32,471 nt of DNA from Zetaproteobacteria bacterium. GTDB taxonomy: Bacteria > Pseudomonadota > Zetaproteobacteria > Mariprofundales > Mariprofundaceae. Below the pieces are notes generated by a model. That model did no database searches, had not been told where the DNA came from, and saw nothing but the letters and a program-made list of their open reading frames with translations. Position numbers and translations under genes: made by a program. Within the stretch, counting starts at the first letter, position 1. Each line of letters begins with the position of its first letter. The DNA lies in the NCBI GenBank assembly GCA_003228735.1, contig QIFG01000071.1, positions 1 to 32,471 on the forward strand, in the 5' to 3' direction. Shown here piece by piece: positions 9,135 to 22,015 of this stretch.

Positions 9135-9189
9135 TTGATTCGGGCTTTTGCCCTCTCCCTTCGGGCGCCCTGTCGGGCGTCCAAACGGC
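9135..9189 (-). repeat. REP-like palindromic repeat between nirD and the FNT gene
   Basis: On the minus strand this 55-bp stretch begins GCCGTTTGGACGCCCG and ends GCCCGAATCAA. Inside are small hairpins such as CGCCC-GACA-GGGCG and GGGC-AAAA-GCCC. The same end sequences bracket a copy at 21430-21488. It lies in the 146-bp gap between nirD and the FNT gene, the widest intergenic gap in the operon, where it may act as an mRNA stability or processing element. That role is inference. Confidence 0.6.
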
Positions 9190-9236
9190 AACTTTGTCTT
9201 TTGTCTCTGCGCCCCCTGCGGTAAATGCTTTCTGGT

Positions 9237-20170: not shown

Positions 20171-20188
20171 GAACTAGCCATATGAACC

Positions 20189-20300
20189 ACGCCAAAACGC
20201 AAGTGAATGTCCCACACAAAGGCGCAATTAGAATGTCTCACGCCAAGACGCAAAGGAAGAGTATATATGTTCCCCTTTGCGGTCTTTGCGCCTTTGCGAG
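20189..20300. repeat. Interspersed CGCAAAG-type repeat with direct and inverted copies
   Basis: The 180-bp gap after cysQ contains ACGCCAAAACGCAA (20189-20202) and ACGCCAAGACGCAA (20240-20253), and GAATGTCCCAC and GAATGTCTCAC 26 bp apart. CAAGACGCAAAGG (20244-20256) can pair with CCTTTGCGGTCTTTG (20275-20289) to form a large hairpin. This style of CGCAAAG/CTTTGCG repeat is scattered in many bacterial genomes. ATGs inside it give open frames joined to the next gene, but they are unlikely starts. Confidence 0.65.
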
Positions 20301-20350
20301 AGATATTGTACATGGCTTTATTTATGTCCGCCTTAGTAACGCCATATCTC

Positions 20351-22015
20351 ATGACTCATGACCCTCCCCTGATCCGGGCCATGCTGGAGCCGGATTTCTA
20401 TCCGCATGAGGTGAGCGCGGTCGACCTGATCCAGACACATATCTCGTGGGTGTTGCTGGCCGGGGAATATGCCTACAAGGTCAAGAAGCCCGTTGATTTC
20501 GGCTTTCTCGATTTCACTCATCTTGCCCGGCGGAAACACTACTGTGAACAGGAACTGAACCTGAACCGGCAGCTATCCCCTGAACTGTATCTGGCTGTGC
20601 TTCCCATCTGCGAGCATGAAGACGCCTTCAACTTGGGCGAACAGGGCAAAGTCATCGAGTACTGCCTGAAGATGGTGCGGTTTGCGCAGCAGGACGTACT
20701 GGATCAGCGCTTGGCCAGTGGAACATTCAAGCCGGAATGGATGGATGAACTGGCAAGTGATGTCGCCAGCTTCCATGACCGGGCAGAAACCAGCGCGACG
20801 ATCTGCAACTTCGGCGGCATCGACTTTCTGCAGGAACATGTCGAAACCATTTTCAGGGTTGCCGCTCAGCATCTTGGCGAGGTGATTTCACCTGATGAAC
20901 TGGCTTCGCTCGAATCACACAGCTCGAAGTTCCTCAAGGCGCACACCAAAGCATATAAACAGCGGCAGAAGAACGGCTTCATCCGCGCCTGCCACGGCGA
21001 CCTGCACCTGAAAAACATCACCATGCACAAGGGGCATCCGCGCATTTTCGACTGCATCGAGTTCAACGACGAATTCCGCATGATCGACACCATGAGCGAT
21101 GCCGCCTTTCTGATGATGGACTGTATTTCCCGGCAGCGTCCCGATCTGGCCTACCGCTTTTTATCCCGGTATCTGGAACACACAGGCGATTATGAAGGCC
21201 TGAACCTGCTGCCGCTTTACCTGACCTACCGCGCCGGTGTGCGCGGCAAGGTGGCCTGTCTGCTGGCGGCCGACGGTCATCTGGACAACGAGAAAAGGCA
21301 GGAGCAACTGAAAGAGGCGCATCACTACTTCACGCTGGCCCCCACCTTTATGCTGGCGTCAACCTTTATCGACAAAAAGGCCACAGGCCGTTTGGACGGA
21401 CGAAAGTCCGCCCGACAAAAAGGCGGCACGCCGTTTGGACGCCCGTTCAGGGCGGGGCAAAGCCCCGAGGGCCGCAGGCCCGAGTCAAGGGTGAGGGGCA
21501 TGGATGCCCCGAATCATATGCCAGCCCCTCGCCTGTTTGTGATCGGCGGGCTGTCCGGCAGCGGCAAAAGCCATCTGTCCCTGATTGGCGCGGGAGAGAT
21601 TCCCGCCGTTGTTATCCGCAGCGACGCCACGCGCAAGCGCCTGGCACGGATTTACCCTGAACTGCTGCTATACGGCCTGGAGATGCATGCTAAGACCTAT
21701 GACGCCATGTTTGAAGCCGGGCGCACGGCGCTGAAAGCCGGATTTTCCGTCATTCTTGATGCCACATTTCTGCGCCGGCAAGACCGGGATCAAGCCAGGG
21801 ATCTGGCCGACGAGATGAAAACCGACTGCCATATCCTGTGGCTGGATATGGATGTGGGCACCCTACGCCAGCGGATACGAAACCGAGGCAACTCCGACAT
21901 TTCAGATGCGGATATCACCGTGCTTGAAAAGCAACTGGCTGAATACCAGCGGCCTGTCGAGCCGGACGTTCGGTTTCTTACAGACAGTGCCTGCTGGCCG
22001 CCAGAACACCTCTGA
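20351..22015 (+). CDS. Bifunctional APH-like kinase / AAA (P-loop) kinase fusion
   Basis: The product (554 residues from this start) joins an aminoglycoside-phosphotransferase-like domain (COG2187 type) to a P-loop kinase domain (COG0645 type), a known fusion of unknown substrate. The first half has HISWVLLAGEYAYKVKKPVD near residue 30, the catalytic HGDLHLKN (about 218-225) and IFDCIEF. The second half has Walker A GGLSGSGKS (about 399-407) and DATFLRRQDR. Between them, about 45 residues (RLDGRKSARQKGG and onward) are encoded by a palindromic repeat array at 21387-21509. The start at 20351 fits the family; ATGs upstream (20267, 20312) lie in repeat sequence. No clear ribosome binding site. 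Confidence 0.83.
   Translation: MTHDPPLIRAMLEPDFYPHEVSAVDLIQTHISWVLLAGEYAYKVKKPVDFGFLDFTHLARRKHYCEQELNLNRQLSPELYLAVLPICEHEDAFNLGEQGKVIEYCLKMVRFAQQDVLDQRLASGTFKPEWMDELASDVASFHDRAETSATICNFGGIDFLQEHVETIFRVAAQHLGEVISPDELASLESHSSKFLKAHTKAYKQRQKNGFIRACHGDLHLKNITMHKGHPRIFDCIEFNDEFRMIDTMSDAAFLMMDCISRQRPDLAYRFLSRYLEHTGDYEGLNLLPLYLTYRAGVRGKVACLLAADGHLDNEKRQEQLKEAHHYFTLAPTFMLASTFIDKKATGRLDGRKSARQKGGTPFGRPFRAGQSPEGRRPESRVRGMDAPNHMPAPRLFVIGGLSGSGKSHLSLIGAGEIPAVVIRSDATRKRLARIYPELLLYGLEMHAKTYDAMFEAGRTALKAGFSVILDATFLRRQDRDQARDLADEMKTDCHILWLDMDVGTLRQRIRNRGNSDISDADITVLEKQLAEYQRPVEPDVRFLTDSACWPPEHL
21387..21509 (+). repeat. Palindromic repeat array inside a coding sequence
   Basis: GCCGTTTGGACG occurs at 21387-21398 and again within GCCGTTTGGACGCCCG at 21430-21445. 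The full unit 21430-21488 ends GCCCGAGTCAA and matches the intergenic copy at 9135-9189 at both ends. Nested hairpins follow one another: CGGAC-GAAA-GTCCG, CGCCC-GTTCA-GGGCG, CGGGGC-AAA-GCCCCG, GGGCC-GCA-GGCCC and GGGGCAT-GG-ATGCCCC. The array is read through in frame as a basic, Gly/Arg-rich linker in the kinase fusion. Confidence 0.78.

Follow-up and report, generated by a model that had tools for sequence, protein, structure and literature searches.

The window analysed here, 32,471 nt long, is contig C13 of a draft genome of 1.88 Mb. The host belongs to the Zetaproteobacteria (Mariprofundaceae), a free-living lineage of the iron-oxidising type. Within an open frame spanning 20207-22015 lies a fusion gene that joins an APH-like domain to a P-loop domain (Table 1), and the ATG at 20351 is its likely start. 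Pfam recognised AAA_33 clearly in the fusion protein and placed the APH match slightly below the cut-off; on these assignments "kinase" is a likely name for the product. Both domains retain their conserved motifs in the alignment with 16 orthologues. Between them, in frame, lies an insert of 144 bp (48 codons, 21372-21515) for which Rfam returned no match. A second repeat family, consisting of palindromes of the ACCACAGAGACACGAAGGCACAAAG type with a period of about 10 bp, occupies 20184-20307 upstream of the gene.

Table 1. Features of the window
Feature	Position	Strand	Basis
Intergenic element copy, 68 bp	9137..9204	-	cmsearch 53.7 bits, E 6.8e-13
APH-like/P-loop fusion gene carrying the insert	20351..22015	+	ORF; alignment to 16 orthologues; Pfam
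Outer element, left part, ACAAAAAGGC...CCGCCCG, 43 bp	21372..21414	+	Ends mapped on 128 copies and on two empty sites; model match 21373-21408
Inner element, full 72-bp copy inserted in the outer element at CCCG^AAGGG	21415..21486	+	Excision gives the family's usual CCCGAAGGGTGAGGGGC
Outer element, right part, AAGGGTGAGG...GCCCCGAATC, 29 bp	21487..21515	+	Left + right = 72 bp
In-frame ATG in the last hairpin of the outer element, preceded by GAGGGG	21500..21502	+	Read from sequence
P-loop (AAA_33) domain	21533..21955	+	Pfam PF13671, 6.9e-25; GGLSGSGKS motif intact

The insert is composed of one 72-bp element split by a second, complete 72-bp copy. When the inner copy is removed, the outer element reads CCCGAAGGGTGAGGGG, the same as other copies of the family, and when all 144 bp are removed the flanks join in frame as MLASTFID-MPAPRLFVIGGLSG. 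The reading frame passes through the two copies in different codon phases. The 12-mer GCCGTTTGGACG occurs twice in the linker region, and 1 of 200 shuffled sequences folded as well as the repeat stretch (z -2.5). The sequence-only reading had described a palindromic REP-like array of nested hairpins at 21387-21509, about 120 bp long and encoding about 45 residues. The repeat is real, but its extent had been underestimated at both ends, and the array proved to be two nested units rather than a tandem series. The frame is open across the insert, as had been claimed, and expression of the ORF as a single protein would entail translation of the repeat.

The fusion protein was matched in 43 of the 100 genomes searched, and in the relatives examined the first domain runs directly into the P-loop domain. 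None of the 16 aligned orthologues has the linker, which bears out the earlier proposal that a conserved fusion has been interrupted. Compared with these orthologues the window protein carries 54 additional residues, 48 of them encoded by the elements. We infer the empty site of the kinase gene by comparison across genera; relative to the linkers of those other genera, the ancestral one seems to have had about 6 more residues. Neither of the two outcomes named beforehand as contrary to the proposal arose, namely a similar linker with unrelated DNA in relatives or ends that do not recur in the genome.

The extracted copies define a unit with a modal length of 72 bp that starts with ACAAAAAGGC, ends with GARTC and contains the constant core CCGTTTGGACG. 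Its RNAalifold consensus forms three or four small hairpins; at 10 of the 19 consensus pairs both sides have changed and at least one sequence still pairs there, a pattern that partly reflects shared ancestry. Adjacent copies stand head-to-tail in 15 of 16 pairs, with the junction GARTC-ACAAA. Immediately to the right of the element, 127 of 128 copies have an A; immediately to the left, 101 of the 109 non-tandem copies have G or C. Modal lengths are 72 and 69 bp, the length is divisible by three in 75 of the 128 copies, and the sequence is GC-rich and almost free of stop codons in most frames. Such properties might mean that the element is adapted to harmlessness in genes, its lengths and near stop-free sequence being kept by selection on insertions, so that it acts as a gene-tolerant mobile maker of linkers in a free-living lineage, with a mover that selects sites 5' of an A; we regard this as improbable, and the equal lengths could instead reflect the common ancestry of the copies. 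The copies within genes would be translated in varying phases and from both strands, so that no conserved peptide is delivered by the element.

In its own genome the repeat is abundant. Exact copies of GCCGTTTGGACG number 47, against 0 for the reversed control; the 141-bp stretch used as a BLAST query hit 38 places, and a covariance model found 70 copies at 54 sites. The repeat recurs throughout the genome, far above what chance would give. The intergenic relative proposed at 9135-9189 is a true member of the family, with corrected boundaries and on the minus strand. Of 78 genomes from the order, 51 had at least one copy by the covariance model, with a maximum of about 60 per genome, and the window genome is placed in the same family as element-carrying genomes. 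When 84,980 genomes of named species were scanned for the exact pattern, 24 matches emerged, all of them in Zetaproteobacteria and including Mariprofundus ferrooxydans PV-1. No description of a Mariprofundus or Zetaproteobacteria repeat family of this type was found in the open-licence literature searched. The ACCACAGAGACACGAAGGCACAAAG-type repeats are a frequent landing site of the 72-bp element and also flank many elements in L001-L060.

About 11 of the 70 copies lie less than 400 bp from contig ends, and copies stand at the ends of contigs C30, C32, C35, C36, C41 and C75 of genome G000. The repeat thus breaks the assembly, and the copy number is a lower bound. This raises the question of whether the kinase insert is itself an artefact of a draft contig misjoined at a repeat. 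Such a misjoin is extremely unlikely, since the halves of the gene are in the correct order and frame, with a PhoH-type neighbour that is also present in several relatives, and clean insertions occur in two other genes, one of them in another genome.

These two genes show that the kinase is not a single case. AnmK of the same genome carries a diverged 75-bp copy in frame. The inserted residues are absent from the AnmK sequences of relatives and from solved ones, and EPGLN-E-IDS in relatives corresponds to EPGLN-[26 residues]-IDS here; removal of the element leaves a GAG (Glu) codon that matches the relatives. A glyoxalase-like gene of the relative G033 contains a 72-bp copy, antisense and in frame, whereas G018, whose DNA is 88% identical to that of G033, has the empty site. 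When the element is excised at either site, the protein or DNA layout matches that of relatives again; an A stands on the right, and neither site shows a target duplication. Transposition would account for these empty sites and for the interspersion of the copies.

Insertions in genes are rare. They account for 3 of the 70 copies in the window genome and, in a census of three relatives, for 1 of 130, the glyoxalase-like gene being the only case; genes are thus strongly avoided by the element. Other open-frame candidates, near RlpA, EF-P, an ABC permease and several unmatched ORFs, were judged to be upstream or shadow frames and discarded. One copy (L105:1924-3093, G000:C17:14090) directly precedes an RlpA-like lipoprotein gene; the open frame continues through this copy, which may form a 5' leader or an N-terminal extension. 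In a three-copy cluster (L103, G000:C26:16401) the variant left end ACAAATAG seems to terminate the preceding open frame by providing its stop codon.

At the sequence level, these comparisons establish the family, its boundaries, its lineage and its absence from the corresponding genes of relatives; they also show two other genes in which the element is inserted cleanly and in frame, with no target duplication. Very probably, a lineage-specific, non-autonomous mobile palindrome of about 72 bp, belonging to the Zetaproteobacteria (Mariprofundaceae), was inserted in the kinase linker, a second copy then entered the first, and the result is tolerated with no need for a linker function. In this sequence of events, the first element would have entered the linker that joins the two domains of a conserved kinase-like gene, and the second would have landed within that element. 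The GC-rich, mostly stop-free insert, a multiple of three in length, would then have been tolerated in a flexible linker as an extra unstructured segment, while most other in-gene insertions would have been lost to selection.

The SD-like GAGGGG and the in-frame ATG (21494-21502) contributed by the element make a possible internal start for the P-loop domain, which might also, or instead, be produced as a separate protein, with the strong hairpins affecting read-through. Fission of the gene in this way is nevertheless unlikely, because the upstream frame is fully open, the spacing between GAGGGG and ATG is short, and the motif is a property of the element at many sites and not of the kinase gene.

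The insert had also been described as domesticated, and its 48 element-derived residues, which are basic and rich in Gly and Arg, could in principle be a selected linker that alters the kinase, for example via RNA or nucleotide binding. The frame did stay open over two successive insertions, and the motifs of both domains are intact. However, the linker is found in one genome only, its nested copies are read in different phases, the three genes share no conserved peptide, and unrelated genes tolerate the same family. The segment is also predicted to be disordered: AlphaFold gave low confidence at residues 339-388 of the kinase, coincident with the insert, and at residues 55-79 of AnmK, again at the insert, and predicted the remainder of both proteins well. 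Low confidence over the inserts is expected because they have no homologues in the alignments, and the informative part of these models is the predicted good folding of the flanking domains. We found no sign of a selected function; domestication of the linker is not supported and we consider it very unlikely. The insert is probably neutral, the element being tolerated where it falls in a linker or a loop.

As to how the element moves, Y1 transposases are the movers of classical REPs. Over 78 genomes, copy number did not correlate with the number of Y1_Tnp genes (Spearman 0.06, p 0.62), and no Y1_Tnp genes were found in genomes with 38 and 18 copies. Of the six Y1_Tnp genes in the window genome, one has the element in its vicinity, at one flank only; a copy at L134:1111-1183 (G000:C75) lies about 50 bp downstream of a Y1_Tnp gene, on a single side. 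A RAYT/Y1 transposase was rejected as the mover, given the lack of correlation and of flanking pairs. For a possible IS200-IS605 derivative, the expectation would be no target duplication and a fixed tetra- or pentanucleotide to the left. The two empty sites lack a duplication, but the left flank of the element is only biased towards G or C, and the base that stays constant, A, lies to the right. CGTC REPs are reported to have no known mover (PMC3733652).

Several known repeats invite comparison. Rickettsia palindromic elements (RPE) are interspersed, occur in frame in unrelated genes and are compatible with folded products (Ogata 2000/2002, reviewed in PMC10969869). The 72-bp element is also palindromic, interspersed and in frame in unrelated genes (kinase, AnmK and glyoxalase-like) that relatives carry without the insert. 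RPE, however, are about 150 bp long, and nearly half of the copies in R. conorii lie in genes (PMC10969869), against the small genic share here; the element is also read in several phases and on both strands. The exact pattern was not found in Rickettsia, a statement that concerns this pattern only. The element works like RPE and is not RPE by lineage or size.

GTAG and CGTC REPs are hairpin repeats that are mostly intergenic and sometimes intragenic (Di Nocera 2013, PMC3733652), as is the element; no dedicated transposase accompanies the CGTC type either, and the tetranucleotide CGTC stands beside the first hairpin on the element's minus strand. CGTC REPs are defined as single hairpins of 20-40 bp with a CGTC tag, a stem of 8-9 bp beginning with AT and a CCA tail, and are mostly arranged head-to-head (PMC3733652). 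In contrast, the element is a composite of 3-4 hairpins, its stem starts with CAAA, it has no CCA tail and its neighbours are head-to-tail. Called REP-like in the sequence-only reading, the element does not fit REP as strictly defined (20-40 bp long, of the GTAG or CGTC type and linked to RAYT). One copy (L118, G014:C19) stands beside a CGTCATTCTCGCGAAAGCGGG hairpin that resembles a CGTC-1/dRS3-type REP, and both kinds of repeat may thus coexist in the lineage. REPINs and BIMEs with RAYT are likewise interspersed hairpin DNA in arrays, but the copy number of the element is independent of Y1_Tnp genes. MITEs (ERIC, Coxiella QMITE and Nezha) are also short, mobile, without their own transposase and at times intragenic and translated; the ends of the element, ACAAA and GARTC, are not inverted repeats, however, and its empty sites lack their target-site duplication.

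Translated palindromic repeats were first described as unique to Rickettsia and later as intragenic REPs in several species. The phenomenon itself is already known, and the present results add to it an in-gene palindrome family from free-living Zetaproteobacteria. The precise empty sites fix the ends and the target of the element and show the origin of new unstructured protein segments. The element also provides a searchable handle toward the enzyme that mobilises such repeats.
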